Positions 2 through 34,515 of a DNA stretch of 41,392 bases are shown piece after piece. A program made the translations under genes and the position numbers. The stretch comes from Microbacterium sp. Its GTDB lineage: Bacteria; Actinomycetota; Actinomycetes; Actinomycetales; Microbacteriaceae. The notes below the pieces were generated by a model, which saw only the letters and a program-made list of their open reading frames with translations, was not told the DNA's origin and searched no databases. The stretch is from contig JARBUN010000054.1 in NCBI GenBank assembly GCA_029239635.1, positions 1 to 41,392 of the forward strand, written 5' to 3'. Position 1 is the stretch's first letter. Every line of letters begins with the position of its first letter.

Positions 2-955
2 GACCGCCCCCTCGACGCCGGCGTGATGCTGCAGCGACTGCGCGAGGTCGAGAAGGAGCTCGGTCTCGCCCCCCAGGTCGCGAGAGCCGTCTCGGTGGGA
101 ACGGTCGGCCCCGCCAGCCCCGCGGAGTCCCGCGAGCTGACCAAGGTCCTCCCCCAGACCGCCACGATCCCCGACGCCCCGGCCGAGGACGTCGACAACG
201 CGACGCGGTTGCGGGCCAAGACGCGCCGGCGCACCACCCGCGGTGTGTGGCTGCTGCTGCTCGTCCTGTTCCTCGCGGGAGGGTCCGCGGCGACCGGCTG
301 GTGGTTCGGCTCCGGGCCCGGCTCGCTCGTCGAGGTACCCGACGTCTCGCAGCGGAGCTTCGCGGATGCCGAGAGCCTGCTGACCCAGAACCAGTTGCGC
401 GCGCAGTCGCAAGACGTGAACGACCGCGAGATCCCCGCCGGGACGACCGTGGGCTCCGATCCGGCGGCGGGTTCCCGCCTCGACAAGGAGACCGTGGTGA
501 CGGTCTTCGTCTCCGCGGGACCGGCCACGCACCAGCTCCCGGAGCTCCAGGGCAAGAGCGTCGACGAGGTCCGCGGCATCCTCGAAGCCGCCTACGTGGG
601 AGTGGGCGACGTCGCCCAGGAGTTCACCGACGCCGGCCCCGGCACCGTCCTGTCGGCATCCATCACTCCCCGCTCCGGCGGCGACGCGATCGACTGCACG
701 GGCGGCTGCACGGTGTACGAGGGCGACGCCGCGTCGCTGACCGCATCGCTCGGACCGGTGCCGGACGTCGCGGGGCTCAAGACCGCGGACGCCGAGAGCA
801 CGCTGCAGGCGGTGAACCTCCGGACGACGACGAGCGAGGAGTACAGCAACTCCGTCGCCTCGGGCACCGTGATCGCGATCGGGGATCGCGACGGCGGCGG
901 CAACTGGCGTCCCGGAGACACGGTCACGTGGGCATGTCGATCCGGGATGCCGTGA
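2..955 (+). CDS. PASTA-domain Ser/Thr protein kinase, C-terminal part (5' end off window, frameshifted near 928)
   Basis: This is the 3' part of a PknB/Stk1-type membrane kinase that senses peptidoglycan fragments through extracellular PASTA repeats. The first in-window residues (DRPLDAGVML) match the end of a kinase C-lobe. A basic stretch (KTRRRTTR) and one membrane helix follow at about nt 244-300, then PASTA repeats starting with VEVPDVSQRS, HQLPELQGKS and GPVPDVAGLK. The frame reads well to GDTVT (ends nt 928), then turns into ACRSGMP and stops at 955, while the next PASTA repeat continues in another frame. A short deletion of 3n+1 bases at about 926-930 explains this: either one lost G, or about 45 bases including the usual VSxGP...VPDV linker. 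The kinase domain itself is not visible. Confidence 0.85.
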   Translation, partial: DRPLDAGVMLQRLREVEKELGLAPQVARAVSVGTVGPASPAESRELTKVLPQTATIPDAPAEDVDNATRLRAKTRRRTTRGVWLLLLVLFLAGGSAATGWWFGSGPGSLVEVPDVSQRSFADAESLLTQNQLRAQSQDVNDREIPAGTTVGSDPAAGSRLDKETVVTVFVSAGPATHQLPELQGKSVDEVRGILEAAYVGVGDVAQEFTDAGPGTVLSASITPRSGGDAIDCTGGCTVYEGDAASLTASLGPVPDVAGLKTADAESTLQAVNLRTTTSEEYSNSVASGTVIAIGDRDGGGNWRPGDTVTWACRSGMP

Positions 956-1119
956 CCGCGCTGGAGAACCTCGGCTTCGAGGTCAACGCCGGCATCGATG
1001 ACGGCACGCTCCCCCTCGGGTTCAAGTACTGGGACATCTACAAGGTGCGGGCGAGCAACCCGAAAGCCGGAACCACGGCACCGCAGGGCAGCACGATCAC
1101 GCTGACGCCCACGCTGTAG
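928..1119 (+). pseudogene. Last PASTA repeat of the kinase, out of frame
   Basis: Reading from GTG at 928 gives VGMSIRDAVTALENLGFEVN and ends in ASNPKAGTTAPQGSTITLTPTL. This is a complete terminal PASTA repeat ending at a TAG stop, as expected for the natural end of the kinase. It has no credible start of its own and is in a different frame from the upstream gene, so it is best read as the displaced 3' end of the same gene. Confidence 0.75.
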
Positions 1120-1183
1120 CGCCCGGGCTCCGGCCGGAACGTGTGCCCCGGCGCCGCCGGGCGAGCACCGCCGCGCGAACGAC

Positions 1184-1215
1184 GATGCCCCCGACCACAA
1201 CGGATCGGGGGCATC
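1184..1215. terminator. Bidirectional hairpin terminator between convergent genes
   Basis: A perfect 11-bp stem (GATGCCCCCGA with its complement) encloses a 10-base loop. It lies between the kinase 3' end and the convergent aroG stop. There is no T-tract, as is common in high-GC actinobacteria. Confidence 0.75.
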
Positions 1216-1232
1216 GAACGGTCGGTCGCGCC

Positions 1233-2570
1233 TCAGCGCTTCTCGAGCTCCTCGGCCACGAGGAATGCGAGCTCGAGGCTCTGACGGTGGTTCAGTCGCG
1301 GGTCGCAGAGGCTCTCGTAGCGGGTCGCGAGGGTGGCCTCGTCGATCTGCTCCGCGCCGCCGAGGCACTCGGTGACGTCGTCTCCGGTGAGCTCGACGTG
1401 GATGCCGCCGGGGTGCGTGCCCACGGCGCGGTGCGCCTCGAAGAATCCGCGCACCTCGTCGACGACGTCGTCGAAGCGACGCGTCTTGTACCCGGTCGGC
1501 GTCGTGATGCCGTTGCCGTGCATGGGGTCGGTGACCCAGAGCGGGGTGGCACCCGAGTCGCGGACGGCCTCGAGCAGCGGGGGCAGCGCGTCGCGGATCT
1601 TGCCGGCCCCCATGCGGGTGATGAACGTCAGGCGACCGGGCTCGCGCTCGGGGTCGAGCTTGTCGATGAGCGCCAGCGCCGTCTCGGCCGTGGTGGTCGG
1701 GCCGAGCTTGACGCCGATGGGGTTGCGGATCTTCGAGAAGTAATCGACGTGCGCGCCGTCGAGCTCGCGCGTGCGCTCACCGATCCACTGGAAGTGCGAC
1801 GAGGTGTTGTACGGCAGGCCGGTGCGGGAGTCGATCCGCGTCATCGGACGCTCGTAGTCCATGAGCAGACCCTCGTGACCGGTGTAGAACTCGACGCGCG
1901 TGAGCTCGTCGAAGTCCGCGCCGGCGGCCTCCATGAACTTGATCGCGCGATCGATCTCGGTCGCCATGGACTCGTAGGCCTGGTTCGCGGGGGTGCTGGC
2001 GAAGCCCTTGTTCCAGCTGTGCACCTCGCGCAGGTCGGCGAAGCCGCCCTGCGTGAAGGCGCGGATGAGGTTCAGGGTCGACGCAGCCGTGTGGTAGCCC
2101 TTGAGCAGACGCGCGGGATCGGCCTTGCGGGACTCCTCGGTGAAGTCGTACCCGTTGACGATGTCGCCGCGGTAGGCGGGAAGGGTCACTCCCCCACGGG
2201 TCTCGACGTCGCTCGAACGGGGCTTGGCGAACTGGCCCGCCATGCGGCCCATCTTCACCACGGGCATCGACGCGCCATAGGTGAGGACGACGGCCATCTG
2301 AAGCACCGTCTTGATGCGGTTGCGGATCTGCTCGGCGGTCGCGCCGGCGAACGTCTCGGCGCAGTCACCGCCCTGCAGGAGGAACGCCTGACCAGCGGCG
2401 GCACGAGCGAGACGATCGCGCAGGATGTCGACCTCACCGGCGAAGACCAGCGGCGGGAGGGTCGCCAACTCTGCGGATGCCGCGGCCACCGCGCCCTCGT
2501 CATACCACTGCGGCTGCTGCTTGATGGGCAGGGAACGCCAGTGGTCGAGGTCGTGGAGCTGCTGATTCAC
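1233..2570 (-). CDS. aroG: Class II 3-deoxy-7-phosphoheptulonate (DAHP) synthase
   Basis: Catalyses the first step of the shikimate pathway, condensing phosphoenolpyruvate and erythrose 4-phosphate in the cytosol. The 445-residue protein is the normal length for the class II (plant/actinobacterial) family. It carries FLLQGGDCAETFAG with the metal-ligand Cys at residue 70, PVVKMGRMAGQFAKPRS, YRGDIVNGYDF and, near the end, CDPRLNHRQSLELAF. The start is GTG at 2570, preceded at six bases by a TAGACT -10 box, suggesting its own leaderless transcript as well as read-through from the acyltransferase gene nine bases upstream. Sequence appears intact. Confidence 0.96.
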   Translation of the reverse strand: MNQQLHDLDHWRSLPIKQQPQWYDEGAVAAASAELATLPPLVFAGEVDILRDRLARAAAGQAFLLQGGDCAETFAGATAEQIRNRIKTVLQMAVVLTYGASMPVVKMGRMAGQFAKPRSSDVETRGGVTLPAYRGDIVNGYDFTEESRKADPARLLKGYHTAASTLNLIRAFTQGGFADLREVHSWNKGFASTPANQAYESMATEIDRAIKFMEAAGADFDELTRVEFYTGHEGLLMDYERPMTRIDSRTGLPYNTSSHFQWIGERTRELDGAHVDYFSKIRNPIGVKLGPTTTAETALALIDKLDPEREPGRLTFITRMGAGKIRDALPPLLEAVRDSGATPLWVTDPMHGNGITTPTGYKTRRFDDVVDEVRGFFEAHRAVGTHPGGIHVELTGDDVTECLGGAEQIDEATLATRYESLCDPRLNHRQSLELAFLVAEELEKR

Positions 2571-2576
2571 CCCTGA

Positions 2577-2582
2577 AGTCTA
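2577..2582 (-). promoter_or_regulatory. -10 box TAGACT for leaderless aroG
   Basis: TAGACT on the minus strand lies six bases before the aroG GTG, placing the transcription start at the start codon. It overlaps the end of the acyltransferase gene. No clear -35 box. Confidence 0.5.
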
Positions 2583-3293
2583 GTGGCGCGACGCGGGCGC
2601 CTTCGCCGCCTGCGAGGTGGCCAGACGGTCCTTCACGGTCGAGGCGTAGACGTCCTCGTAGCGCTGCTCGCCGAGGCGCTGCAGCGCGACCATGATTTCG
2701 TCGGTGACCGACCGGAGGATGTAGCGATCGCCCTCCATCCCCTCGAAGCGGGAGAAGTCGAGAGGTTCGCCGACGACGATCCCCACCCGCCCGACGCGCG
2801 GCAGCCGCTGGCCGATCGGCATGACCGCGCCGGTGTCGACCATGACCACGGGGATCACCGGGACGCGCGCCTCGATGGCCATGCGCGCGATGCCCGTGCG
2901 GCCGCGGTACAGGGTGCCGTCGGGGCTGCGGGTGCCCTCGGGATAGATACCCAGCAGCTCCCCGCGACCGAGCACCCCGAGGCCGGTGTTGAGCGAGGCC
3001 TCCGAGGCCTTGCCCCCGGAGCGGTCGATCGGCAGCTGCCCGGTGGCGGTGAAGAAGAGGCGCGTGGCCCAGCCCTTCAGGCCCTTGCCGGTGAAGTAGT
3101 CGCTTTTCGCCAGGAACGCCATGCGGCGGTCGATCATGAGCGGGAGGAAGATCGAGTCGGAGAACGACAGGTGATTGCTGGCGAGGATGGCGGCGCCCTC
3201 GCGCGGGATGTTGCGCCGACCCACGAGCCACGGACGGAACACGGCCTTGATGACCGGGCCGATCACGACGTACTTCATGAGCCAGTAGAACAT
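2580..3293 (-). CDS. 1-acyl-sn-glycerol-3-phosphate acyltransferase (PlsC family)
   Basis: Transfers an acyl chain to lysophosphatidic acid in phospholipid synthesis at the inner face of the membrane. The 237-residue protein has the family NHxxxxD catalytic motif as NHLSFSD (His41, Asp46), a hydrophobic N-terminus, and the substrate-binding motif YPEGTRSPDG near residue 117. It starts at ATG with AAGGAG eight bases upstream, inside the end of the ROK kinase gene (2-base gap), and ends nine bases before aroG, so ROK kinase, plsC and aroG form one minus-strand operon. The exact lyso-substrate cannot be told from sequence. Confidence 0.93.
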   Translation of the reverse strand: MFYWLMKYVVIGPVIKAVFRPWLVGRRNIPREGAAILASNHLSFSDSIFLPLMIDRRMAFLAKSDYFTGKGLKGWATRLFFTATGQLPIDRSGGKASEASLNTGLGVLGRGELLGIYPEGTRSPDGTLYRGRTGIARMAIEARVPVIPVVMVDTGAVMPIGQRLPRVGRVGIVVGEPLDFSRFEGMEGDRYILRSVTDEIMVALQRLGEQRYEDVYASTVKDRLATSQAAKAPASRH

Positions 3294-3295
3294 CG

Positions 3296-4231
3296 TCAGC
3301 GCTCCTTGCCCGCCAGATCCGCGACGCCGATGAGACCGGCGTCGTTGCCCAGTCGCGCGATCGTGAACTCGGCCACCGGACGTTCACCGTACCCCGGGAG
3401 CGAGGTCTCGTACGCGAGCTTCACCGGGACCAGCAGATCCGCACCCAGTTGGGCCACGCCTCCGCCGATGACGAAGAGCTCGGGGTCGAGCACGGCCTGG
3501 AACCCCCCGCATGCCTCGCCGAGCGCTGTGGCCACGCGGCGCAGGGCCTCCACCGCACCCGGATCGCCGGCGAGCACCAGGCGCGAGACGGCGGGGCCGG
3601 GGATCGCGCCCCTCTCGTCGCGGATCGCGGCGAGGGCGGCGCCGATGCCGCCTTCGTCGGCGATGGCGTTGGCTTCGCGCTGCAGAGCGCGGCCGGACGC
3701 GTACTGCTCGAGGCATCCGTTCTGCCCGCACCCGCAGGGGTGCCCGCCGCGCACGAACCGCATGTGGCCCAGTTCTGCGCCGATGCCGTGGCCGCCGCGG
3801 AAGAGCTCGCCGTCGGTGACGACGGCGCCGCCCACGCCCGTGCCCATGGTGAGCATCACCATGTCGCGAACGCCCTGTCCCGCGCCGAAGCGGTACTCGC
3901 CCCAGCCGGCGGCATTGGCGTCGTTCTCGATCGTGACGGGGGCGTGCAGGCGGTCTTCGAGCCGCGCGCGCAGGGGCTCGTTGCGCCAGTCGATGTTCGG
4001 GGCGTAGATGACCGTGCTGCGGTCCGAGCTGATGAACCCGGCGGCCGCGACGCCGATCGCGTGGATCTCGTGGGCCCGGCGCAGGTGATCGGCCATGTCG
4101 ACGACGGCATCCACGAGGGCGGCCGGATCGATCGGGGTGTCCACGCGGAGCTTCTCGACGATGGTGCCGTCTTCGGCGACGACGCCCCCCGCGATCTTCG
4201 TGCCTCCGATGTCGATGCCGACGTTCTGCAC
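3296..4231 (-). CDS. ROK-family glucokinase
   Basis: Phosphorylates glucose or a related hexose in the cytosol. The N-terminus has the phosphate-1 motif GIDIGGTK, and the middle carries the ROK zinc signature CGCGQNGCLEQYASG after the conserved ELGHMRF segment. At 311 residues it matches the usual size. I chose GTG at 4231 (MQNVGIDIGG) because GGAGGGG sits six bases upstream; a longer reading frame to 4282 has no family support. First gene of the operon with the acyltransferase and aroG. There is no N-terminal DNA-binding domain, so it is a kinase rather than a ROK repressor; sugar specificity is inferred. Confidence 0.93.
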   Translation of the reverse strand: MQNVGIDIGGTKIAGGVVAEDGTIVEKLRVDTPIDPAALVDAVVDMADHLRRAHEIHAIGVAAAGFISSDRSTVIYAPNIDWRNEPLRARLEDRLHAPVTIENDANAAGWGEYRFGAGQGVRDMVMLTMGTGVGGAVVTDGELFRGGHGIGAELGHMRFVRGGHPCGCGQNGCLEQYASGRALQREANAIADEGGIGAALAAIRDERGAIPGPAVSRLVLAGDPGAVEALRRVATALGEACGGFQAVLDPELFVIGGGVAQLGADLLVPVKLAYETSLPGYGERPVAEFTIARLGNDAGLIGVADLAGKER

Positions 4232-4271
4232 CGTGCTCCCCTCCGGCTCGCCACCCGGCGCGGCCCGGAGC

Positions 4272-4277
4272 AGTCTA
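4272..4277 (-). promoter_or_regulatory. -10 box TAGACT upstream of the ROK kinase operon
   Basis: TAGACT on the minus strand, about 40 bases before the GTG, in the divergent region shared with the acyl-CoA ligase. It would give a short leader containing the GGAGGGG ribosome site. Confidence 0.4.
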
Positions 4278-4338
4278 GCCACCCTCCGCGACCCGTGCGG
4301 GACGGGGCGCCTGCCGCGGCCGCACGGAGTCGTCCGGA

Positions 4339-4344
4339 TAGACT
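4339..4344 (+). promoter_or_regulatory. -10 box TAGACT upstream of the acyl-CoA ligase gene
   Basis: TAGACT on the plus strand, about 42 bases before the GTG start, giving a leader of roughly 35 bases that includes AAGGAG. Same hexamer as used by the divergent operon. Confidence 0.4.
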
Positions 4345-4386
4345 CGACGGACCGATCGACATTTTTCCGGTACCGAAGGAGTTGCC

Positions 4387-6084
4387 GTGATCCAGTTCGA
4401 CCTCCCCCCCATCGTCGAAGCCGACCCGGACGCCAACAGGCGCGACGTCACGGCTGCGGAATTCGAGCGGCAGGTGATCGCGCTGGCCAAGGGCTTCGTC
4501 GCGGCGGGCGTCCAGCCCGGCGAGAAGGTGGGCTTCATCGCCCGCACCACGTACGACTGGACGCTCGTCGACTTCGCGCTCTTCTATGCCGGGGCGATCA
4601 TGGTTCCCGTCTACGAGACCAGCTCGCCGTCGCAGATCTCGTGGATCCTCTCGGACTCGGGTGCCATCGCGGTCGTGCTCGAGTCGCCGGAGCACGCCGA
4701 GCGCCTCGACGAGGTCCGCAGCGACCTCCCTCTCGTGCGCGAGGTGTGGCCGATGCACTCGGGCGCTCTGGACGTGCTCGTCGCGAACGGCACCCACATC
4801 ACCGACGAGGAGATCGAGCGTCGTCGCCGTCTCGCGAAGGCGTCGGATGTCGCCACCCTCATCTACACCTCCGGATCGACCGGCCGCCCCAAGGGCTGCG
4901 TGCTGGTGCACAGCAACTTCGTCGAGCTGGCCCGCAACTCCGCCAAGGCGTTGCACGAGGTCGTGGAGACCCCGGGCGCCTCGACCCTGCTGTTCATCAC
5001 GACCGCCCACGTGTTCGCGCGCTTCATCTCGCTGCTGAACGTGCACGCGGGCGTCAAGACCGGGCACCAGCCCGACACCAAGCAGCTGCTGCCCGCGCTC
5101 GGCACGTTCAAGCCGACGTTCCTGCTCGCCGTGCCGCGCGTGTTCGAGAAGGTCTACAACTCGGCCGAGCAGAAGGCCGAGGCCGGCGGCAAGGGCAAGA
5201 TCTTCCGCGCCGCCCTGGCGCTGAAGGTCAAGTTCGCCCTGTTCGACAAGCTCGTGTATTCGAAGCTCCGGGATGCCATGGGCGGGCGCATCGTGTACGC
5301 CGTCTCGGGGTCCGCTCCCCTGGGTCCGCGCCTCGGTCACTTCTTCCGGAGCCTCGGCGTCGTGATCCTCGAGGGCTACGGCCTCACCGAGACGACGGCG
5401 CCGGCCACGGTGAACCTCGCCACGAAGTCGAAGATCGGCACCGTCGGTCCCGTACTCCCCGGTGTCGGCATCCGTCTCGCCGACGACGGCGAGATCCAGG
5501 TGCGCGGCATCAACGTGTTCCGCGAGTACTGGCAGAACCCGGAGGCCACGGCCGAGGCGTTCGACGGCGAGTGGTTCAAGACGGGCGACATCGGGGCGTT
5601 CGACAGCGACGGTTTCCTCGCGATCACCGGTCGCAAGAAGGAGATCATCGTCACGGCCGGCGGCAAGAACGTCGCCCCCGCCGCGCTCGAGGACCCGATC
5701 CGCGCCAACCCGATCGTCGGCCAGGTCGTGGTCGTCGGCGACCACAAGCCGTTCATCTCGGCGTTGGTGACGCTCGACCCCGAGATGCTGCCGACGTGGC
5801 TCGCGAACAACGGCCTCCCCGCCGACATGTCGCTGACGGACGCGGCCACGAACGAGAAGGTCCGGGCCGAGGTCCAGGGCGCGATCGACCGCGCCAACAC
5901 GCGGGTGTCGCGCGCGGAATCGATCCGCAAGTTCACGATCCTCCCGACGGAGTGGACCGAGGCCAGCGGTCACCTGACGCCGAAGATGAGCATCAAGCGC
6001 AACGTCATCGTGAAGGACTACGCCGACGCGATCGAGGACATCTACGCGGTGCCGATCAACACCACGAACGTCTCGCTGCCCTGA
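4387..6084 (+). CDS. fadD: Long-chain fatty acid-CoA ligase (FadD15-like), short N-terminal internal deletion
   Basis: Activates long-chain fatty acids to acyl-CoA through an acyl-AMP intermediate. The AMP-binding P-loop IYTSGSTGRPKG, the VYETSSPSQISWIL block, GYGLTE and WFKTGDIG...GRKKEIIVTAGGKN hinge/C-terminal motifs are all present. The start is GTG at 4387 with AAGGAG five bases upstream. At 565 residues it is shorter than the roughly 600 expected for this actinobacterial group: residue 17 (DAN) joins directly to RRDVTAAEF, skipping the block of about 25 residues (the L..R....P...A region) that normally precedes the DVTAAE helix. The loss is in frame. The catalytic core is untouched, but folding of the N-domain may be affected. 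Confidence 0.92.
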   Translation: MIQFDLPPIVEADPDANRRDVTAAEFERQVIALAKGFVAAGVQPGEKVGFIARTTYDWTLVDFALFYAGAIMVPVYETSSPSQISWILSDSGAIAVVLESPEHAERLDEVRSDLPLVREVWPMHSGALDVLVANGTHITDEEIERRRRLAKASDVATLIYTSGSTGRPKGCVLVHSNFVELARNSAKALHEVVETPGASTLLFITTAHVFARFISLLNVHAGVKTGHQPDTKQLLPALGTFKPTFLLAVPRVFEKVYNSAEQKAEAGGKGKIFRAALALKVKFALFDKLVYSKLRDAMGGRIVYAVSGSAPLGPRLGHFFRSLGVVILEGYGLTETTAPATVNLATKSKIGTVGPVLPGVGIRLADDGEIQVRGINVFREYWQNPEATAEAFDGEWFKTGDIGAFDSDGFLAITGRKKEIIVTAGGKNVAPAALEDPIRANPIVGQVVVVGDHKPFISALVTLDPEMLPTWLANNGLPADMSLTDAATNEKVRAEVQGAIDRANTRVSRAESIRKFTILPTEWTEASGHLTPKMSIKRNVIVKDYADAIEDIYAVPINTTNVSLP

Positions 6085-6724: not shown

Positions 6725-7820
6725 GCCGCCGCCACCGGAGCGCGCAGGCCCTCGACGACCGCCGCCGCGAGCTGACGGGCGGCGAGACGGGTCTCGGGCG
6801 AGAGGTCGCGGAACGAGATGGCGCTTCCGGCCGCGATGCGCGGGTCGTAGGGCATCCGGATCACCGTCTGCACGCGCGTCCGGAAGTGCGCCTCGAGCTC
6901 GCTCTCGCGGACGAGCGGCGTGCCGGGTCGCGCGGAGTTGATCACCACGACGGCGGAACGCACACGGTCGGCGTATCCGTTGGTCTCGAGCCACGTGAGC
7001 GTCTCGGACGCCAGTCGGGCCTCGTCGACGGAGAGCCCCGCGACGACGACGAGGGAGTCGGCGCGCTCGAGCGTCGCCTCCATCACCGAGTGCACGATGC
7101 CCGTCCCGGTGTCGGTCAGCACGATCGAGTAGTAGTGCGCGGCGACGTCGGCCACCTGTCGGTAGTCGTCGTCGCTGAACGCCTCGGACACCCGCGGATC
7201 GGAGTCGGATGCCAAGACATCCAGGCGCGTGGCGTCGCGGGCCACGATCGAGGACACGTCGTGATAGCCGTCGACCTCGTCGTGCGCGCGCACGAGGTCG
7301 CGCACGGTCCGGCCGTTGGGGCGCCCCACGCGGTCGGCGAGCGTTCCGCGGTCGGGGTTGGCATCGACGGCGATGACACGGTCGTCGCGGGCGTCGGCGA
7401 GGGCCATGCCCAGGAGCGAGAGCGGCGATACGACGGTCGAGTTCTTTGCGCTGCCGCGCGCGTCGACCGTCACCGAGGTTGATCCGGCGGCCGGACATGG
7501 AGTAGACGAGCTGCTGCCAGAGGCCCTCCGGCTCGGGCCGCGCGACCTGCCGCGGGTCGAGCAGACGGTCGGCGGTGAGCAGGTCGGGGCTCTCTCGCGT
7601 GTCGTCGATCGCGCTCGACCGCTTCGAGGTGAGCGCGAGGTCGGGACCGGGGGTGCGCACCCGCTCGGCCGCGTGCGCGCGCCCCACGCGCGCCGCCTCG
7701 TCGGCCTGGTGCGCCCCGCGGCGCGTGAGGGGCACGGTGCCGATCGCGCCGGTCGCGGCCCGTTCGGCGCGGGTGCGCGGGATCGCACCCGTGGTCGTCG
7801 CGACGGCACCGGCGGGAACC

Positions 7821-7883
7821 GTGCCGGTGGTGGCGGGGACCGTCCCGGTGGTGGCGGGGACCGTCCCGGTGGTGGCGGGGACC
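7821..7883 (-). repeat. Three 21-bp tandem repeats in the MinD-like gene
   Basis: Three near-identical 21-base units encode the heptad ATTGTVP in the low-complexity linker between the acidic region and the ATPase domain. Degenerate copies flank them. Such repeats may vary in number between strains. Confidence 0.8.
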
Positions 7884-8655
7884 GTGCCGGTCGAGGTCGC
7901 GACAGCACCGGTGGCCGAGGGAACCGCTCCGGTCGTCGTGGGGGTGCCGTCGGTCGGGGCACTCGCGGTCGGCGCGGCAGCGGGCTCCGCGGGCTCCACG
8001 TCGGCGTCTGCGGCGTCGGAGGACGCGATCTCGGCTCCGTGGGGCTCGTTCACGAATGTGGTCGCCTCGATCGCGTTCGACTCGTCGGCGCTCGACACGG
8101 GCTCGTGCGTTCGGTCGTGGCTCATGTCGGCCTCGTTCTGCTCCCGCTCGTCGTTCTCGGTGAGTTCGTCCGCGGCCCTGTCGGCCTCGACCGGAGTCGC
8201 CTCGTCGCCCGGGTGCTCGCCGCTCTCGGGCTCGGCGGCTTCCTGATCAGCGAGCTCGCGTCGGGCGAATTCGTCTTCGGCGAGGTCGTCGTCGAGGTCT
8301 TCCGCCGTGAAGTCCTCGGCGGCGGGGTCCGCGCGGGAGAGCTCGGCCTCCGCGATGTCCGCGTCGGCGGACTCGGCATCGACGTACTCCGCCTCGACGG
8401 ACTCCGTCTCGACGGCGCCGGTGTGAGCGCTCTCGAGGTCGGCATCCACCGCGCCCGTGGACTCCGCGTCGGTGGACTGCGCAGGCTCGTCGCCCGTGTG
8501 GTCGTCGACCGGGCGCTCGTCGCCGTCGGGCTCGACGTCGGCGGGCTCGTCGTCTGCACGCTGGTCGTCTGCACGCAGGTCGTCCACGAGCTCGTCACCC
8601 ACGAGCTCGTCACCCGCGCGTTCGTCATCGACGACGTCGTGCTGGGCATCAACGT

Positions 8656-8745: not shown

Positions 8746-9431
8746 CGTCCGCGGGCTCCCCGTCGAGGTCCTCCGGCTCGAACACGTCGGTCGACAGCAC
8801 GAACGGCGTTACCGGCGCGGGGTCGAATCCGTCGGTCGACAGGATGATCCGGGGCTCCACGCGGTCCTCGTCGAAGCCGGCGACGACCAGATCGTCGCGC
8901 GACGAAGCCTCCGCGGCATCCTCGCTCTCCGGCTCGCCCTCGAACGCGTCACCGGATTCGCCCTCCGATTCTTCGACGATCTCGGCGTCGTGCACCTCCG
9001 GCTCGTCGTGCACCTCCCCGTCGGAGTCGGCATCGGCGTCGTCGTGGGGCTCGAGGATGATGTCGCCGGTCGGCAGGTGCTCGACGTGCACGTCGTCCTG
9101 CACCGTCGGCTGCGGGTCCGTCTGCGGTTCGGGCACGTAGGTGAGAGCGGGCGCACCGTTGCCCCCGTCCAGGGTGAACGGCTGGCCGATGGTCTCGAAG
9201 GAGCGGATCTCGGCCTCGTCGACCGGTACCTCGTCTTCGACCACATCGTCGTCGATGTCGTCGTCGTGCGAGGTCACGGGCAGGTCGACACTGACCTGCG
9301 CGATGTGCCCGCCGAGGATGGTGATGCTGGCTGTGTCGAGATTCCCGCTCTCGTCGAGCACGCCGTGCTCGGCGTTCTCGTCGGGGTTCGCGTCGATGCG
9401 GTCGGGGGTCACTGCAGTCTCCAAACGGGAA

Positions 9432-9453
9432 GAGGGCGCGAAAGCGCCCCCTC
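9432..9453 (-). terminator. Hairpin downstream of pyruvate carboxylase
   Basis: GAGGGCGC and GCGCCCCCTC pair around a GAAA tetraloop, just below the pyruvate carboxylase stop and just above the MinD-like gene start. One mismatch in the stem, short T-run on the minus strand. Confidence 0.6.
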
Positions 9454-9475
9454 CCAGGTTACTGCGCGGGGCGGA

Positions 9476-12400
9476 TTACCAGCAAAAGGTCTCCCGCTTC
9501 ATCGCCGCCTCCATCTTCATCGCCTCGATGGATGCCACCGCCTGGCCGACCGTGACCCGGTCGCCCGGGGCGGCCTTGAGCGTCACGACGCCCGAGAACG
9601 GAGCCGCGACCTGACCGGGCTTGGAGGTATCGGCCTTCTCGGCCTGACGGGCCTCGACATCGATGGAACGGTCACGGACGAACACGGGGCGCAGCTGCCC
9701 GTTGAGGGTGGTCATGACCGTCCGCATGCCCTTGTCATCGGCCTCGCCCACCGCCTCGAGGCCCACGAAGAGCTGCACGCCGCGTTCGATCTCGACCGTG
9801 TGCTCGCCCCCCGCCCGCAGCCCGTAGAGGTAATCGGCCGTGTCCAGCACGCTGAGGTCGCCGTACGCCTCGCGGGTCTCCTCGAACGTCCGAGTCGGCC
9901 CCGGGAACAGCAGGCGGTTCAGGCGCGCGCGACGCTCGGCGGACTCCCCCGCCAGCGCCGTCGCGTCGTCGTCGCTCAGCGGCGTCACCCCGATCTTCGC
10001 GTCGCGTCCGGCCAGCACCTTCGAACGGAACGGCTCGGGCCAGCCGCCGGGCAGGTCTCCGAGCTCGCCCGCCATGAACGAGACGACCGAGTCGGGCACG
10101 TCGTATTTCTCGGGGTTCTGCTCGAAGTCGGCGGGGTCGGCCTTGACCGCCGCGAGGTGCAGGGCGAGATCGCCGACGACCTTCGACGAGGGCGTCACCT
10201 TCGGCACGCGACCGAGGATGCGGTTCGCCGCCGCGTACATGTCCTCGATGAGCTCGAAATCGTCGGCGAGCCCCAGGGCGATCGCCTGCTGGCGGAGGTT
10301 CGACAGCTGTCCGCCCGGGATCTCATGCCGGTACACCCGACCGGTGGGGCCGGCGAGACCGGACTCGAACGGGCGGTAGAGGTGGCGCACGGCCTCCCAG
10401 TACGGCTCGAGATCGCTCACGGCCGCCAGGTCGATGCCGGTGTCGCGCTCGGTGTGCGCGAGCGCGGCGACGAGGGCCGAGAGCGACGGCTGGCTCGTGG
10501 TGCCCGCCATGGGCGCGGCGGCCGCGTCGACGGCATCCGCCCCGGCCGCAGAGGCGGCCAGGAGCGTCGCCAGCTGCCCGCCCGCGGTGTCGTGCGTGTG
10601 CACGTGCACCGGAAGGTCGAATCTCTCGCGCACGGCCGAGACGAGCTTCGCCGCCGCCGCCGGGCGCAGCAGACCCGCCATGTCCTTGATCGCGAGCACG
10701 TGCGCGCCCGCGTCGACGATCTGCTCGGCGAGGCCGAGGTAGTAGTCGAGCGTGTAGAGGTCCTCCGCCGGGTCGAGCAGGTCGCCGGTGTAGCAGACCG
10801 CGACCTCCGCGACCGCGGTGCCCGTGTTCAACACGGCGTCGATCGCCGGCCGCATCTGCGCGACGTCGTTGAGGGCGTCGAAGATGCGGAAGATGTCGAC
10901 CCCGGATGCCGCGGCCTCGGCGACGAAGGCATCCGTCACCCGGGTCGGGTACGGGGTGTAGCCCACGGTGTTGCGGCCGCGCAGAAGCATCTGGATCGCG
11001 ACGTTGGGCAGGGCCTCGCGCAGAGCGTCGAGCCGTTCCCACGGGTCTTCGCCGAGGAAGCGGAGCGCGACGTCGTAGGTCGCCCCTCCCCACGCCTCGA
11101 CCGACAGCAGGCCCGGCGTCATGCGGGCCACGTAGGGCGCCACGCGCACGAGGTCGCGGGTGCGGACACGGGTCGCGAGCAGCGACTGGTGCGCGTCGCG
11201 GAAGGTGGTCTCGGTCACGGCGAGGGCGGTCTGCTCGCGCAGGGCCTTCGCGAAGCCCGCGGGGCCGAGCTCGTGCAGGCGCTGACGCGATCCCGCGGGG
11301 GCCGGAGCGACGAGGTCGAGCACGGGGAGCTTGGCGCTCGGATCGACCGACAGCGGGTTCTCGCCGTGCGGACGGTTGACCGTGGTGTCGACGAGCCACG
11401 AGAGGATCTTCGTGCCGCGGTCCTTCGACTCGCGGCCCTTCAACAGCTCGGGGCGCTCATCGATGAACGACGTGCTGAGGTCGCCGGCGACGAAGGCCGG
11501 GTCGTCGAGCACCGCCTGCAGGAACGGGATGTTCGTCGAGACGCCGCGGATGCGGAACTCCGCCAGAGCGCGCCGCGCGCGGGCGACCGCCGCGGGGAAA
11601 TCGCGCCCGCGGCACGACAGCTTCGACAGCATCGAGTCGAAGTGCGGGCTCACCTGCGAGCCCGCGGCGGTGGTGCCGCCGTCGAGGCGGATGCCGGCCC
11701 CACCGGGCGAGCGGTAGGTGGTGATCTTGCCGGTGTCGGGGCGGAAGCCCTGCGTGGGGTCCTCGGTCGTGATGCGGCACTGCAGCGCCGCGCCGCGCAG
11801 GTGGATGTCGTCCTGCTGCAGGTGCAGCTCGGCGAGGGTCGCTCCCGCGGCGATCCGCATCTGCGACTGCACGAGGTCGACGTCGGTGACCTCCTCGGTC
11901 ACGGTGTGCTCGACCTGGATGCGGGGGTTCATCTCGATGAAGACGACCTCGCCCGCGCGCGGCCCCGCGGTCTCGAGGAGGAACTCGACCGTTCCGGCGT
12001 TCTGGTAGCCGATCGACCGCGCGAAGGCGACCGCGTAGCGGTGGAGGTCCGCGCGCACCGCGTCGTCGAGGTTCGGCGCCGGGGCGATCTCGATGACCTT
12101 CTGGTGGCGCCGCTGCACCGAGCAGTCGCGCTCGAACAGGTGGACCGTCTCGCCCGCGGCATCCGCGAGGATCTGCACCTCGACGTGACGCGGGCGCTGC
12201 ACGGCCTGCTCGAGGAACATGCGGGGGTCGCCGAAGGCGCTCTGCGCCTCGCGCATCGCCTCCGCCAGCGCCGGGGCGAGCTCGCCGAGGTTCTCGACGC
12301 GACGCATGCCGCGCCCGCCGCCGCCGGCAACGGCCTTCGCGAAGAGCGGGAACCCGATCTCCTCCGCCTGCGCCAGCAGTGCGTCGATGTCGTCGGAGGC

Positions 12401-15258: not shown

Positions 15259-15776
15259 CAGTGCTCTGCCGGCGGCAGATCGACGGGCGAGACGAAGAAG
15301 TTGAGCCGGAACTTGCCGATGCGCACCTCGGACCCGTTCGCGAGCACCGAGCGGTCGACGCGCTCGCCGTTGACGTAGCTGCCGTTCAGCGACCGCTGGT
15401 CGACGATCTCGAACGACGTCCCCGAGCGCGTGATCTCGGCGTGCCGGCGCGAGACCGTGACGTCGTCGAAGAAGATGTCGGCTTCGGGGTGACGACCGAC
15501 CGTGGTGACGTCGGTGTCGAGCAGGTAGCGCGCGCCCGTCGTGGGACCGGAACGGACGATGAGCAGGGCGACCCGAGACGGCAGCGCGTCGATCGCCTCC
15601 AGCTCGGCCTCGTTGAGGTCGGCGCCGAAGGGGACGAAGGACAGATCGGCATCGTGACCGAACGTCTGCGTCGTGTCGTGCGACCGCTCCGACGCGGGAA
15701 CGTCGGCTGCACGATGGATGTCATCGCGCTCGAATCTGCGGGTCTCGTCCACGGGCTTCTCCTTCTTCTTCACCAT
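15258..15776 (-). CDS. FHA-domain protein of the GarA/OdhI type
   Basis: A phosphopeptide-binding regulator; in Mycobacterium and Corynebacterium the homologue, when unphosphorylated, inhibits 2-oxoglutarate dehydrogenase and is switched off by PknB/PknG-type kinases. The FHA domain is complete (TTVGRHPEADIFFDDVTVSRRHAEI; SLNGSYVNGERV). Upstream of it HDTTQTFGHD (Thr35, Thr36) occupies the place of the ETTSVFR phosphorylation site, which it resembles only loosely. The start is uncertain: ATG at 15776 has no ribosome site, and the frame stays open to GTG at 15899, adding 41 residues (including GVETTAQT) of doubtful coding quality. First gene of the FHA-ftsR-merR operon. Confidence 0.9.
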   Translation of the reverse strand: MVKKKEKPVDETRRFERDDIHRAADVPASERSHDTTQTFGHDADLSFVPFGADLNEAELEAIDALPSRVALLIVRSGPTTGARYLLDTDVTTVGRHPEADIFFDDVTVSRRHAEITRSGTSFEIVDQRSLNGSYVNGERVDRSVLANGSEVRIGKFRLNFFVSPVDLPPAEH

Positions 15777-24589: not shown

Positions 24590-26572
24590 TCACCCGCAGT
24601 CGTACACCGTTCCGGGAGCGGACGAGTCGACCGCGCAGTTCTGCTCGACCCACTGGCGGATCTGCGCCGACGCCGTGTCGGTGTTCGTCGACCGGGCGGA
24701 TCCGGTCCCGCCGAAGCCCCCTCCGCCGGTGCCTCCCGCCCCGCCGAACCCTGTCGCTCCCGTTCCCGCTCCGCGGTCCTCGCCGCCGATGACGTAGCGC
24801 AGCTCGCCGGACTGGACGAGGGAGAGGAACCTGTCGAGCGTCGGGACGTCGTCGCTGCCGTTGTACGTCGTTCCCGTGTCGCGCGCCTCCAGCCACGCGA
24901 CGAGCTCGGTGTCCGCACTCCGCGAGGTGCCCGCCTGGCCGCCGAAGCCCTGAGACGAATCGGTCCGCCCGGTTCCCGGAGCCGTACCCGGGCCGCCCGC
25001 CGCGGAGCCGTTGCGCGCTCCCCCGCCCTGCGCACCGCTTCGCCCGCCGGCCTGACCGCCGCCCTGCGCGCCGCCGGGAACAGAGCCGCCGTCGGGGCGC
25101 GCGCCCGTCCCCTGTCCCCCGGGACCTCGCCCGGCGCCGCCGAAGCCGCCGGCGGACATCTCGGACACCCCGCCGGCGACGGGGTTGATCGAGCTCGGGT
25201 GGGCGATCGTGACCGCCGACCACACGGCCGGCGTGAGCAGCAGCCCGACCACCGTCACGACCGTGGTGACCAGCCGAGCGCGGTGACGCGAGAGCAGCAG
25301 GACGATCGCCGCCGCGGCGGCGGCCGCCTGGATCAGGGAAACGGGGATGCTGTACCCGCCGTACGAGAAGCCGATGACGACGGCGGTCAGCCCGGCCACC
25401 CCGACGATCGCGACGCGCGGCCAGACCTTCCCGGCGCGCTGCGCGGCGGCGAAGGCGACGGCGACGACGAGGGCGAGCGGGACCGCGAGGGCCGCCGTGT
25501 AGAACTGGTGCATCCCGGCGACGGTCGAGAACATGACCGCGAACGTCGCCGTCCACACCGCCAGCAGCACGGTCAGGGGCCGCGGGAAGCGGAGGATCCA
25601 CAGCACGACGATCCCGAGGATCGCGGCGGGGATCAGCCAGGCGATCTGCCCGGCCAGTTGCACGTTGAACAGGCGCAGGATGCCGGGGTCGCCGGAGAAC
25701 GGCGGGGTGAAGGACTCGTACGTCGCGCTGTCCGCCGTCGCCGAGAAGCGTCCGAGGCCGTTGTATCCGAAGACCATCTCCCAGGGGTTGTCGCCGATCG
25801 TGCTGCCGATGTACGGCCGGGTGCCGGTCGGGATGAGCGAGACGATCGCGACCCACCAGAGCGAGGCAGCGAGGCTCACCGCCCCGGCCACGGCGAGATG
25901 GATGATCCGGCGCGCCCAGCTCTGGCGCGTGCAGAGGTACGCCGCGGCGAGGGCGGGCCAGACGGCCCAGGCCTCGAGCATGTAGAACTGGAACGACAGG
26001 CCCACGAACGCACCCGCGACGACGAGCCAGCCGAGGCTCCGCGCCTGGACCGCCCGGACGGACGCCCACGCCGTCAACGCCAGACCGAGCACGAAGAACG
26101 ACTCGGGCTGATTGGAGCGCGAGACGGCGACGAGGATCGGGGTGACCGCGGTGATCGCCCCGGCGAGCAGTCCCGCGCGCAGGCCCGCGAGCCGGCGACC
26201 GGCCACGGCCGTCACGATCGCGGCGGCGGTCGCCGCGAGGGCGTTGGGCAGGATCACCGTCCAGGCGGAGTACCCGAACACCCGCACGAACAGCGCGGGG
26301 ATCCAGAACGAGCCCGGGATCTTGTCGAGGGTGACCGTGCCCGCCGGGTCCACGGCCCCGAAGAAGAAGTCGGACCACGACCGGCTCATGGACAGGGCGA
26401 TCGACGCGTAGTACTCGGACGGCGCGCCCGCCCAGACCTGCCAGCCGGTCAGGATGAGCGCCAGGGCGCCCACCGCGACCAGGCCGCCCGTCCAGGCCCG
26501 CGAACGGCGAGCGGCGGGAGGCGGAGCGGCCTCGGGGAGCGGCGCAGCGATCGGGTCGAGCGTGGCGGTCAT
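24590..26572 (-). CDS. GT39-type membrane glycosyltransferase (YkcB-like), internal deletion in the C-terminal domain
   Basis: Polytopic enzyme expected to transfer a sugar from a polyprenyl-phosphate donor to an extracytoplasmic acceptor. The N-terminal half shows the early Asp loop (DPAGTVTLDKIPGSFWIPAL), SRSNQPESFF and about eleven membrane helices; a long Gly-rich linker follows (about residues 480-560), then a small C-terminal domain ending AQIRQWVEQNC. In that domain LVAWLEARDTGTT joins directly to YNGSDDVPTLDRFLSL. The family usually has 35-40 residues between these (the ...AAS..L.TG..VM.IGGF block), so an in-frame deletion near 24864-24868 is likely. ATG at 26572, TACCAT six bases upstream. 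Confidence 0.9.
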   Translation of the reverse strand: MTATLDPIAAPLPEAAPPPAARRSRAWTGGLVAVGALALILTGWQVWAGAPSEYYASIALSMSRSWSDFFFGAVDPAGTVTLDKIPGSFWIPALFVRVFGYSAWTVILPNALAATAAAIVTAVAGRRLAGLRAGLLAGAITAVTPILVAVSRSNQPESFFVLGLALTAWASVRAVQARSLGWLVVAGAFVGLSFQFYMLEAWAVWPALAAAYLCTRQSWARRIIHLAVAGAVSLAASLWWVAIVSLIPTGTRPYIGSTIGDNPWEMVFGYNGLGRFSATADSATYESFTPPFSGDPGILRLFNVQLAGQIAWLIPAAILGIVVLWILRFPRPLTVLLAVWTATFAVMFSTVAGMHQFYTAALAVPLALVVAVAFAAAQRAGKVWPRVAIVGVAGLTAVVIGFSYGGYSIPVSLIQAAAAAAAIVLLLSRHRARLVTTVVTVVGLLLTPAVWSAVTIAHPSSINPVAGGVSEMSAGGFGGAGRGPGGQGTGARPDGGSVPGGAQGGGQAGGRSGAQGGGARNGSAAGGPGTAPGTGRTDSSQGFGGQAGTSRSADTELVAWLEARDTGTTYNGSDDVPTLDRFLSLVQSGELRYVIGGEDRGAGTGATGFGGAGGTGGGGFGGTGSARSTNTDTASAQIRQWVEQNCAVDSSAPGTVYDCG

Positions 26573-28492: not shown

Positions 28493-28559
28493 CGATCTGT
28501 TCCCCACCGCCACCCCCGCCTTTCCGGCACATCCTATGTCGACGGGAGCCGTGTCGGGC

Positions 28560-30209: not shown

Positions 30210-30306
30210 GTGCGCTCCCCCCAGAAGACCCGAAGAATCAATCTCACACACCCTAGTGCGCGACCGGTCGGAGTGTCCGGGCGCCGCTCAGCCGAGGAGG
30301 ACCCGC

Positions 30307-31794
30307 ATGACCTTGATCCGCCACCACATCGCCGGCGCCGCGCGCGGGACCGACGCGCGCACCGGGGACGTCTTCGACCCCGCGACCGGTGCGGTGCAGG
30401 CGCACGTCGCCTTCGCCACGACCGCCGAGGTCGACGAGGCGATCGCCGCGGCCGCCGCGGCGCTCCCCGCGTGGCGGGCGACGAGCCTCATCAAGCGTGC
30501 CGACGTGTTCTTCCGGCTGCGCCACCTGCTCGTCGAGCGCACCGACGAGCTCGCGGCGATCATCACCTCCGAGCACGGCAAGGTGCTCTCGGATGCCAAG
30601 GGCGAGATCAGCCGCGGCATCGAGAACGTCGAGTTCGCCGCGGGGCTGGTGCATCTTCTCAAAGGCGAGCATTCCGAGCAGGTGAGCCGCGGGGTCGACG
30701 TGCACTCCGTCAAGCAGCCCGTGGGAGTGGTCGCCGCCATCACCCCCTTCAACTTCCCCGTCATGGTCCCGCTGTGGATGACGGCATCCGCCATCGCCTG
30801 CGGGAACACGGTCGTGCTCAAGCCGAGCGAGAAGGATCCCTCCGCCGCGCTCTTCCTCGCGAAGCTCTTCGAGGAGGCGGGCCTCCCCGCGGGTGTGCTG
30901 AACGTCGTGCACGGCGACAAGGTCGCCGTCGACGCCCTGCTCGACTCGCCCGTCGTCCGCGCGGTGAGCTTCGTCGGCTCGACGCCCATCGCGAAGACGA
31001 TCTACGCGCGCGCGGCCGAGAACGGCAAGCGCGTCCAAGCGCTGGGCGGAGCGAAGAACCACATGGTGGTCATGCCCGACGCCCACCTCGACGCGGCCGC
31101 CGACGCCGCCGTCTCGGCCGCGTACGGTTCGGCGGGCGAGCGCTGCATGGCGGTGTCGGTGCTCGTCGCGGTCGGAGACGACGTCGCCGACGCCCTCGTC
31201 GAGAAGGTCTCCGGCCGCATCGCGGGACTGAGAATCGGCCCGGGAACGGATGCCGAGAGCGAGATGGGCCCGCTCATCACCCGCGAGCACCGCGACAAGG
31301 TCGCCTCCTACGTGACCGGCGCCGCCGCGGAAGGCGCCGAGGTCGTCGTCGACGGCACGACGCAGGAGTTCGAGGGCGACGGCTTCTTCGTCGGCGTCTC
31401 GCTCGTGGACCGCGTGGCCCCGGGCATGAAGGTGTACGACGACGAGATCTTCGGCCCCGTGCTCTCGGTCGTCCGCGTGCAGAGCTACGACGAGGCCGTG
31501 GCCCTCGTCAACGCGAGCCCCTACGCCAACGGCACCGCGGTCTTCACGCGCGACGGCGGCACGGCTCGGCAGTTCGAGTTCGACATCGAGGTCGGCATGG
31601 TCGGCGTGAACGTGCCGATCCCCGTCCCGGTGGGCGCCTTCTCGTTCGGCGGGTGGCGCAACTCGCTGTTCGGCGACTCGCACATCTACGGTCCCGAGTC
31701 GATCCACTTCTACACGCGCAGCAAGGTCGTCACCACCCGCTGGCCCGACCCCAGCGAGAGCCAGATCAGCCTCGGCTTCCCGAGCAACCACTGA
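30307..31794 (+). CDS. mmsA: CoA-acylating methylmalonate/malonate-semialdehyde dehydrogenase
   Basis: Oxidises malonate or methylmalonate semialdehyde to acetyl- or propionyl-CoA with NAD and CoA. The 495-residue protein is intact: TPFNFPVMVPLWM, VVLKPSEKDPSA (Lys172), catalytic Cys280 in GSAGERCMAVS, and the family's GGAKNHMVV in place of the usual general-base Glu, which separates MMSDH from ordinary aldehyde dehydrogenases. ATG with GAGGAGG seven bases upstream. First gene of an operon with the aminotransferase and the second dehydrogenase, suggesting beta-alanine or beta-aminoisobutyrate breakdown. Confidence 0.95.
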   Translation: MTLIRHHIAGAARGTDARTGDVFDPATGAVQAHVAFATTAEVDEAIAAAAAALPAWRATSLIKRADVFFRLRHLLVERTDELAAIITSEHGKVLSDAKGEISRGIENVEFAAGLVHLLKGEHSEQVSRGVDVHSVKQPVGVVAAITPFNFPVMVPLWMTASAIACGNTVVLKPSEKDPSAALFLAKLFEEAGLPAGVLNVVHGDKVAVDALLDSPVVRAVSFVGSTPIAKTIYARAAENGKRVQALGGAKNHMVVMPDAHLDAAADAAVSAAYGSAGERCMAVSVLVAVGDDVADALVEKVSGRIAGLRIGPGTDAESEMGPLITREHRDKVASYVTGAAAEGAEVVVDGTTQEFEGDGFFVGVSLVDRVAPGMKVYDDEIFGPVLSVVRVQSYDEAVALVNASPYANGTAVFTRDGGTARQFEFDIEVGMVGVNVPIPVPVGAFSFGGWRNSLFGDSHIYGPESIHFYTRSKVVTTRWPDPSESQISLGFPSNH

Positions 31795-31813
31795 GAACCG
31801 GAAGGGAACCCTC

Positions 31814-33211
31814 ATGACCCTCACGACCCCCGATCTCTCGGCGGGACCCACCCCCGGCCCCACCCCCGACCCTGACGCCGACGCCCGCGTCCGCGCGAAC
31901 GACCGCGGCCACGTCTTCCACTCGTGGAGCGCGCAGGCGCTCATCGACCCGCTGCCGGTCGCCGGCGGCTCGGGCGCCACGTTCTGGGACTACGCGGGCA
32001 ACAGCTACCTCGACTTCTCGTCGCAGCTGGTCAACCTCAACCTCGGGCACCAGCATCCCGATCTCGTCGCCGCGATCCAGCGCCAGGCGGGAGAGCTCGC
32101 CACCATCCAGCCGGCGATGGCGAACGACGTCCGCGGCGAGCTCGCCCGCCGCATCGTCGAGGTCGCCCCCGAGGGCATGTCGAAGGTCTTCTTCACCAAC
32201 GGCGGGGCGGATGCCAATGAGAACGCGGTCCGCATGGCCCGCCTCGTGACGGGGAAGCGCAAGGTCCTCGCCATGTACCGCAGCTACCACGGCAACACCT
32301 CGACGGCGATCACCCTCACCGGTGACCCGCGGCGCTGGGCGAACGAACCGGCTGACGCCTCGGTCGTGCACTTCTTCGGTCCGTACGCCTACCGCTCGGC
32401 CTTCCACGCCGCGGACGAGGCCGAAGAGGCAGCCCGCGCGCTGGAGCACCTCGAGCAGACGATCATCCTCGAGGGCGCGTCGACCATCGGCGCGATCATC
32501 CTCGAGACCGTCGTGGGCACCAACGGCGTGCTCGTCCCGCCCCCGGGCTACCTCCCCGGCGTTCGCGCCCTGTGCGACAAGTACGGCATCGTCTACATCG
32601 CCGACGAGGTCATGGTGGGCTTCGGGCGCATCGGCGAGTGGTTCGCCGTCGATGCCTTCGACGTCACGCCCGACCTCATCACCTTCGCGAAGGGCGTGAA
32701 CTCCGGCTACGTGCCGCTCGGGGGCGTCGTGATCTCCGACGCGATCGCCGCGCACTTCGACACGGTGGCGTTCCCCGGCGGTCTCACCTACTCGGGTCAC
32801 CCGCTCGCGTGCGCGCCGGGTGTGGCCACCTTCGAGGTGTTCGCGCGCGACGGAATCCTCGAGCGGGTGCGCGACCTCGGCGAACGCGTCGTCGAACCCC
32901 GCCTGCGGGCGATGGCCGAACGGCATCCGTCCATCGGCGAGGTCCGCGGACGCGGACTCTTCTGGGCGATCGAGCTCGTCCGCGATCGCGAGACGCGCGA
33001 GCCGCTGGTGCCGTTCAACGCGGCAGGACCCGCGGCCGCCCCGATGACGGCGTTCGCGGCGGCGTGCAAGAGGGCGGGGCTCTGGCCGTTCACGCACTTC
33101 AACCGCGTGCACGTCGCCCCTCCCCTCGTCATCACCGAGGAGGAGCTCGTGCGCGGCCTCGACATCATCGACGAGGCGCTCACGGTCGCCGATGAGGCAG
33201 CCGCCTCATGA
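31814..33211 (+). CDS. Class III omega-aminotransferase
   Basis: PLP enzyme that moves an amino group from an omega-amine or omega-amino acid to pyruvate or 2-oxoglutarate. The 465-residue protein is intact: NGGADANENAVRMAR, RSYHGNT, ETVVGTNGVLVPP, Asp264 in IADEVMVGFGR and PLP Lys293 in TFAKGVNSGYVPLG. The N-terminal 20 residues are Pro-rich and may be disordered. ATG with GGAAGGGA upstream. It lies 19 bases after mmsA and overlaps the next dehydrogenase by four bases (ATGA), so with mmsA it fits transamination of beta-alanine to malonate semialdehyde. Exact substrate is inferred. Confidence 0.92.
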   Translation: MTLTTPDLSAGPTPGPTPDPDADARVRANDRGHVFHSWSAQALIDPLPVAGGSGATFWDYAGNSYLDFSSQLVNLNLGHQHPDLVAAIQRQAGELATIQPAMANDVRGELARRIVEVAPEGMSKVFFTNGGADANENAVRMARLVTGKRKVLAMYRSYHGNTSTAITLTGDPRRWANEPADASVVHFFGPYAYRSAFHAADEAEEAARALEHLEQTIILEGASTIGAIILETVVGTNGVLVPPPGYLPGVRALCDKYGIVYIADEVMVGFGRIGEWFAVDAFDVTPDLITFAKGVNSGYVPLGGVVISDAIAAHFDTVAFPGGLTYSGHPLACAPGVATFEVFARDGILERVRDLGERVVEPRLRAMAERHPSIGEVRGRGLFWAIELVRDRETREPLVPFNAAGPAAAPMTAFAAACKRAGLWPFTHFNRVHVAPPLVITEEELVRGLDIIDEALTVADEAAAS

Positions 33212-34515
33212 GGGTGCTGCGGAACGTCGTCGACGGCGTCGCCGTGGCATCCACGGGTCCCCTCCTCGACCTCGTGAGCCCGGTGACCGGTGCGGTGTAC
33301 GCCCAGGCGCCGGTCTCGACCGCCGCGGAGGTGGATGCCGCCGTCGCCGCGGCCGCAGCCGCGTTCTCCGCGTGGAAGCGCGCCACTCCCGCGGAGCGCC
33401 AGCTCGCGCTGTTCCGCCTCGCGGACGCCGTCGAGGCACGCGCGGAGGAGTTCGCCGACCTCGAGTCGGAGGACACCGGGAAGCCGCGCGCGAGCCTCGT
33501 CGCCGACGAGGTCGTGCAGTCGGTCGATCAGCTGCGCTTCTTCGCCGGGGCCGCGCGCGAGCTGAACGGCCGCGCTGCGGCGGAGTACGCCGAGGGGTTC
33601 ACCTCGTACGTGCGCCGCGAGCCGATCGGCGTCGTCGCGCAGGTGACGCCGTGGAACTATCCGCTGAACATGGCGGGTGTGCTGAACGTCGTCCTCGGCG
33701 ACCGCGACACCGGCCGGGCGCTCGTGGAGCACCCGACGCCGCAACTCGTCGCGATCACGGGTTCCGTGCGCGCCGGGATGCAGGTCGCGGCCTCCGCCGC
33801 GCACGACCTCAAGCGCGTGCACCTCGAGCTGGGCGGCAAGGCTCCCGCGATCGTCTTCCCCGACGCCGACCTCGAGGCCGCGGCATCCGGAATCGCCGAG
33901 GCGGCGTTCTTCAACGCCGGTCAGGACTGCACCGCGGCCACACGCCTGCTCGTGCACGCGTCGCTGCACGACGCGTTCGTCGAACGTCTCGTGGCGTACG
34001 TCGAGCAGAACGTCCGCGTCGGGGCGCCGGACGATCCGGAGGCCTTCTTCGGACCGGTGAACAACCCCGACCAGCTCGCGCGGGTCGAGGGTTTCATCGA
34101 GCGCCTGCCCGCGCACGCGCAGGTCGCCACGGGCGGCGCGCGCGTGGGAGACACCGGATGCTTCTTCCCCCCGACCGTCGTCACGGGTCTGCGTCAGGAC
34201 GACGAGCTCGTGCAGCAGGAGGTGTTCGGGCCCGTGCTGTCGGTGCAGGTGTTCGAGACCGAGGAGGAGGCGCTCGCCCTCGCGAACGGCGTGCCCTACG
34301 CGCTCGCCGCCTCGGTCTGGACGCGCGACAACGGCCGCGCGCTGCGCCTGAGTCGCGATCTCGACTTCGGGTGCGTGTGGATCAACGCGCACATCCCGTT
34401 CGTCTCGGACATGCCGCACGGCGGGTTCAAGCACTCGGGCTACGGTAAGGACCTGTCGATCTACGGCTTCGAGGACTACACGCGCCTGAAGCACGTCATG
34501 GCGAGCCTGGGCTGA
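33208..34515 (+). CDS. Aldehyde dehydrogenase (gamma-aminobutyraldehyde type), internal deletion in the NAD-binding domain
   Basis: NAD-dependent dehydrogenase related to gamma-aminobutyraldehyde dehydrogenases. General base Glu207 (HLELGGK) and catalytic Cys241 (NAGQDCTAATR) are present, and the C-terminus (MPHGGFKHSGYGKDLS) is normal. At 435 residues it is about 40 short: VTPWNYPLNMA runs straight into GVLNVVLGDRD near nt 33673, skipping the block with AAGNTVVLKPS whose Lys contacts the NAD ribose. The neighbouring mmsA keeps that block (residues 163-180), which makes the loss plain. The deletion is in frame, but the enzyme as written should not bind NAD. The ATG overlaps the aminotransferase stop. 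Confidence 0.9.
   Translation: MRVLRNVVDGVAVASTGPLLDLVSPVTGAVYAQAPVSTAAEVDAAVAAAAAAFSAWKRATPAERQLALFRLADAVEARAEEFADLESEDTGKPRASLVADEVVQSVDQLRFFAGAARELNGRAAAEYAEGFTSYVRREPIGVVAQVTPWNYPLNMAGVLNVVLGDRDTGRALVEHPTPQLVAITGSVRAGMQVAASAAHDLKRVHLELGGKAPAIVFPDADLEAAASGIAEAAFFNAGQDCTAATRLLVHASLHDAFVERLVAYVEQNVRVGAPDDPEAFFGPVNNPDQLARVEGFIERLPAHAQVATGGARVGDTGCFFPPTVVTGLRQDDELVQQEVFGPVLSVQVFETEEEALALANGVPYALAASVWTRDNGRALRLSRDLDFGCVWINAHIPFVSDMPHGGFKHSGYGKDLSIYGFEDYTRLKHVMASLG

Follow-up and report, generated by a model that had tools for sequence, protein, structure and literature searches.

Blocks missing from conserved genes of a Microbacterium draft genome are very probably assembly gaps closed end to end

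The stretch of DNA analysed here (the window, 41,392 nt) is the whole of contig 155 in a 3.57-Mb draft genome, and seven blocks are missing from six of its conserved genes. We hold with high confidence that these are an assembly artefact, in which gaps without reads were closed end to end with no N between the pieces. The genes themselves are presumably intact in the living organism, and a gap in coverage is the cause that we infer. The missing blocks are therefore likely not a real feature of this genome, but rather a warning about its assembly.

Judged from the sequence, the window belongs in Microbacterium near M. testaceum: its MinD-like protein is 88–90% identical to its best relatives, several of which are named M. 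testaceum. With 207 contigs, 85.45% completeness and no match in a search of the genome for the 23S rRNA gene, the draft is unfinished, as a local assembly error would suppose, and the missing 23S rRNA match would fit a metagenome-assembled or similar draft origin.

Blocks missing from the window

We compared the window by DNA alignment with up to 11 relatives (G006, G007, G009, G013, G020, G024, L003, L004, L005, L007 and L008), of which G007 and G013 are single contigs, and located seven junctions at which sequence carried by the relatives is missing.

J1, 924..928, + strand: PASTA protein kinase; 49 nt missing, blunt join, frame shifted ahead of the final PASTA repeat
J2, 4436..4438, + strand: acyl-CoA ligase, near the gene start; 75 nt missing, in frame
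J3, 5210..5220, + strand: second junction in the acyl-CoA ligase of J2; 54 nt missing, in frame
J4, 7418..7421 (break at 7419), − strand: MinD-like ATPase; 71 nt missing, frame shift
J5, 9500..9501, − strand: 3' end of pyruvate carboxylase; 58 nt missing, frame shifted directly downstream of the biotinyl motif EAMKMEA
J6, 24862..24863, − strand: GT39/YkcB-like mannosyltransferase; 84 nt (28 codons) missing, in frame
J7, 33671..33675, + strand: aldehyde dehydrogenase; 117 nt (39 codons, including VVLKPSE) missing, in frame

An earlier note on this DNA had claimed that six genes each lack one compact block and that the frame shifts in three of them. The alignments bear out both claims, with blocks of 49, 75, 71, 58, 84 and 117 nt and frame shifts at J1, J4 and J5, and the comparison with orthologues that it had proposed showed the blocks in up to 11 relatives, the two single-contig ones included. 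Its statement that everything else was intact has to be corrected, as the acyl-CoA ligase also lacks the 54 nt of J3.

The 49 nt of J1 were present in nine of the 11 relatives, and the gap could not be placed in G013 and L003. All 11 carried the 75 nt of J2 (split as 30+45 in G013 and placed at 4428 in L007), a net 54 extra nt at J3, corresponding to 18 residues absent here, and a net 71 nt at J4 (split as 36+35 in G013 and G020), where the block region codes for the P-loop RKGGVGKTT in G006, G007, G009, G013, G020 and G024. At J5 the gap of 58 nt was likewise seen against all 11 relatives (net 57 in G006), and 17 of 38 other genomes of the genus matched both flanks up to the junction, each with 58 extra bases, while the remaining 21 match the flanks too loosely to tell. 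Among the four aligned copies for J6, the gap of 84 nt was clean against G020 and G024 and fragmented against G006 and G009, and the block of 28 residues was present in the proteins of all four. The 117 nt of J7 were present in the sole relative with a syntenic copy (G009), and the 39 residues in all four aligned homologues.

The Pfam model Biotin_lipoyl was matched at positions 15–45 of 73 in the window, as compared with 15–73 in G007, and YkcB_C at 41–72 of 85, as compared with 1–85 in G020. Besides the window's pyruvate carboxylase, the genome has no full-length copy; two further sites match mainly the biotin carboxylase part, at 47% identity. Over window 9300–9501, G007 and G020 were 95% and 92% identical to the window, against 84% and 82% over the adjoining part of pyruvate carboxylase, a pattern that is the reverse of that in most other relatives. 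A tandem repeat region of GTVPATT-like units, read from the sequence by eye, lies at window 7801–7890 and falls within the N-terminal portion of the MinD-like protein.

The lengths of the homologous proteins bear on whether the short forms are ordinary members of a genus in which protein length varies naturally between species. Variation of that kind does occur: at window 19210 only G024 differs, by 54 nt, and near 7691 two of six relatives differ by 21 nt. At the five well-covered junctions of the window, however, all placeable relatives agreed on the length, and 118 of the best 119 non-self aldehyde dehydrogenases listed measured 471–492 aa and one 432 aa, against 435 aa in the window (lengths from the best 120 of 7993). 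We consider the chance of natural length variation as the explanation to be negligible. The 119 non-self acyl-CoA ligases listed measured 587–622 aa, against 565 aa in the window, and one of them (P0122), 97% identical to the window's protein outside the gaps, has both blocks. For the aldehyde dehydrogenase, the existence of an intact and nearly identical copy (P0002, which has the 39 residues and, gap aside, 99% identity) speaks for an artefact. That P0002 is 99% rather than fully identical is a point against closed-up gaps, and it may come from a sister species.

Recurrence in the draft and rate in related loci

We sampled 20 stretches of the genome (252 kb) and compared five 20-kb pieces with relatives. 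Of the five other contigs compared, all but one held further junctions, seven in total, of 77–238 nt.

C115:14350: 94 nt, from the alignment of relatives; gene without a Pfam match
C115:18661: 238 nt, from the alignment of relatives
C25:4272: 171 nt, from G024 only
C25:6849: 137 nt, from G024 only
C175:4430: 77 nt, from the alignment of relatives
C175:11456: 131 nt, from the alignment of relatives
C165:765: 141 nt, from the alignment of relatives

The fifth contig, C65, showed no junction, with only 6.3 kb of it aligned to relatives. According to Pfam matches in the intact relatives, the genes struck encode a transport permease, a class II aldolase, a luciferase-like monooxygenase, ribosomal protein S15, a membrane transport protein and a MoeA/MobA-like pair. 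The lesion thus recurs in seven more places, rpsO among them, irrespective of the gene, frame or function struck, as is expected of local assembly errors.

The sole match of the genome to ribosomal protein S15 covers model positions 39–81 of 81. This remnant of rpsO, about half of S15, lies at 11376–11504 of L146 (contig C175) with the frame shift at 11456, and the frame that starts from the intact 5' end gave no match to the family. The intact relative matches positions 1–81, and the S15 family was present in all 14 control genomes. In Escherichia coli rpsO is dispensable in the laboratory, so that its loss by itself does not exclude life.

Several differences were left uncounted. Relatives disagreed at C165:11600, C165:14770, C175:11666, C165:15584 and window 19210. 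Three short differences in two other contigs, common to both relatives, were C115:15225 (21 nt) and C165:87–129 (19 and 20 nt). Those at window 7691 and 22756 (21 nt) were seen in two of six relatives, and gaps of 20–44 nt were set aside where they rested on one relative. One-base differences occurred at window 15732–15766, C175:11338, C165:17253 and C115:6065, which on our reading sit outside coding cores. At 15584 of L145 (contig C165) about 42 bases are present here and absent in G024 and G007, and G009 differs again; at 13240 of L146 about 2.35 kb are present here and absent from the corresponding place in G024.

To set these numbers against a background rate, we scanned 70 loci of the window's region from other genomes for consensus indels (1,155,656 testable bases). 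The scan called 19 events of at least 20 nt, of which four entries were deletions in the query locus, the largest of 43 nt, and two of these four adjoin each other in L033. No deletion of at least 49 nt was called in the 70 loci, while the window, scanned alike, gave five deletions of 49–75 nt in 15,244 testable bases. A second, smaller scan, covering 16.0–18.6 kb in each of 10 relatives, turned up a single event of at least 20 nt, which measured 21 nt. The deletions in the window are therefore more than chance would give. Nine loci titled as MAGs among the 70 showed no event, indicating that the lesion is not a general trait of MAGs. Taken together, the lesions are absent from independent close relatives, both in the 70 loci and in the relatives that carry the blocks, in agreement with a local assembly error.

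Character of the joins and rival explanations

The joins are blunt. The longest stretch shared across a join was 4 bases, and microhomology in the best-matching relative averaged 0.85 bases, as compared with 0.86 bases for random pairs of positions (13 junctions, of which J6 is poorly aligned; K7, a junction on another contig, was excluded from this test and from those of repeats, GC and folding). Direct repeats, inverted repeats and hairpin energy showed no enrichment at the 13 junctions as compared with 2000 random positions, and the impression by eye that several junctions resembled small inverted repeats was given up on that ground. Blunt joins without shared words argue against overlap merging, slippage and microhomology repair, and with shared words at chance level we rejected microhomology-mediated deletion.

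The same result bears on a false overlap, in which a short overlap arising by chance would have led to the merging of contig ends and the loss of the intervening sequence. This is a known failure of assemblers, and it would be specific to one assembly, as is seen here. It leads one to expect a shared word at the join, however, and none longer than 4 bases was found, with the mean at chance level, making such a misjoin improbable in our view.

It was also possible that GC-rich or hairpin sequence had failed to sequence and dropped out, which is plausible in a window whose 2-kb bins range from 0.66 to 0.74 in GC, and the lost segments at J7 and K3, and at J4 in G007, did form more stable folds than random segments. 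Taken from the relatives' sequences at 12 junctions (J6, without an anchor, was excluded from the GC and folding averages), the lost segments nevertheless had a mean GC of 0.711, the same as their surroundings, and on average folded about as random segments do, most of the others less stably. Around the junctions GC was even slightly lower than the background (0.674 against 0.710, with 98% of the resampled background means higher). Since the lost segments are of ordinary GC, dropout by composition is argued against, and we think it an unlikely cause. The earlier note's preference for an assembly artefact over biology thus stands, while the two routes that it had favoured, dropout of GC-rich sequence and false overlap, fail on the GC of 0.711 and on microhomology at chance level, respectively.

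The earlier note had named real deletions, frequent and short, as the alternative; they could be blunt ones, made for example by end joining, in a lineage undergoing gene loss. The blunt joins are as expected of end joining, and the deletions occur specifically in this genome. Against this, the sole rpsO match, the P-loop of the MinD-like protein and the only full-length pyruvate carboxylase are all broken, and the sizes ignore the reading frame: six of the 14 are multiples of three, near the third expected by chance, and eight are not, so that neither were conserved genes spared nor was the frame kept, as a deletion-prone lineage would suppose. Furthermore, no consensus deletion of 7–48 nt was called in the window, and none of at least 49 nt in the 1.156 Mb of related loci. 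Frame-blind losses in conserved genes, many here and none of such size in 70 loci, argue against biology, and we give this explanation very little credence; a living Microbacterium whose whole genome underwent a burst of blunt deletions, each of about 50–240 bp and free of any motif, that break even ribosomal protein and central-metabolism genes is very improbable.

With the evidence against overlap, dropout and biology, gaps closed end to end remain. In this mechanism, stretches without read coverage would have been left between correctly sequenced pieces, and two such pieces would then have been set end to end, the unsequenced bases being dropped with no N as placeholder. The join may have been made either by a scaffold gap that was stripped of its N or by a local error of the assembler. 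N characters were absent from the window and from the 252-kb sample of the genome, and N runs are kept in a few other records of the collections used. Removal of N throughout the data resource is not supported, as five of the loci used contain N, and a fixed 500-base polishing grid was rejected, as the junction positions fall off such a grid (by mental arithmetic).

Two features of the junctions speak against closed-up gaps. One is the junction GC, slightly below background; the other is that the sizes span 49–238 nt with a floor near 49 nt in the window, which a plain model of random gaps does not predict. A fixed trimming of contig ends could, as a conjecture, yield such a floor.

Implications and comparison with known assembly errors

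About 110 kb of alignment to relatives contained 14 junctions; by rough extrapolation, hundreds of falsely shortened gene forms probably occur in the draft, so that gene losses, pseudogenes and odd short proteins reported from it should be distrusted. The consensus indel length against relatives, combined with the microhomology at the join, makes a simple test that helps to tell closed-up gaps from false overlaps or real deletions without raw reads.

Local assembly errors and scaffold-gap errors in MAGs are treated by Chen et al. 2020. In the parts of that study available (PMC7111523), local errors are described as unsupported by even one read, and without curation incomplete or incorrect gene sequences are said to spread in public databases. 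Among the literature matches listed, no description of exactly the present pattern was found. As in the MAG errors of PMC7111523, a local fault here disrupts protein-coding genes between correct flanks, and it would be expected to lack the support of any read. The available parts of that source deal with sequence that lacks support, with N gaps and with N placed between flanks that overlap, in contrast to the blunt closed-up gaps of 49–238 nt seen here. The gene-fragmenting errors of long-read assemblies treated by Kastor, as far as the available text goes (PMC12007338), are similar in that artefactually broken genes are found by comparison with references; there, however, the errors are frameshifts and premature stops that arise from read errors, whereas in the present draft whole blocks are missing.
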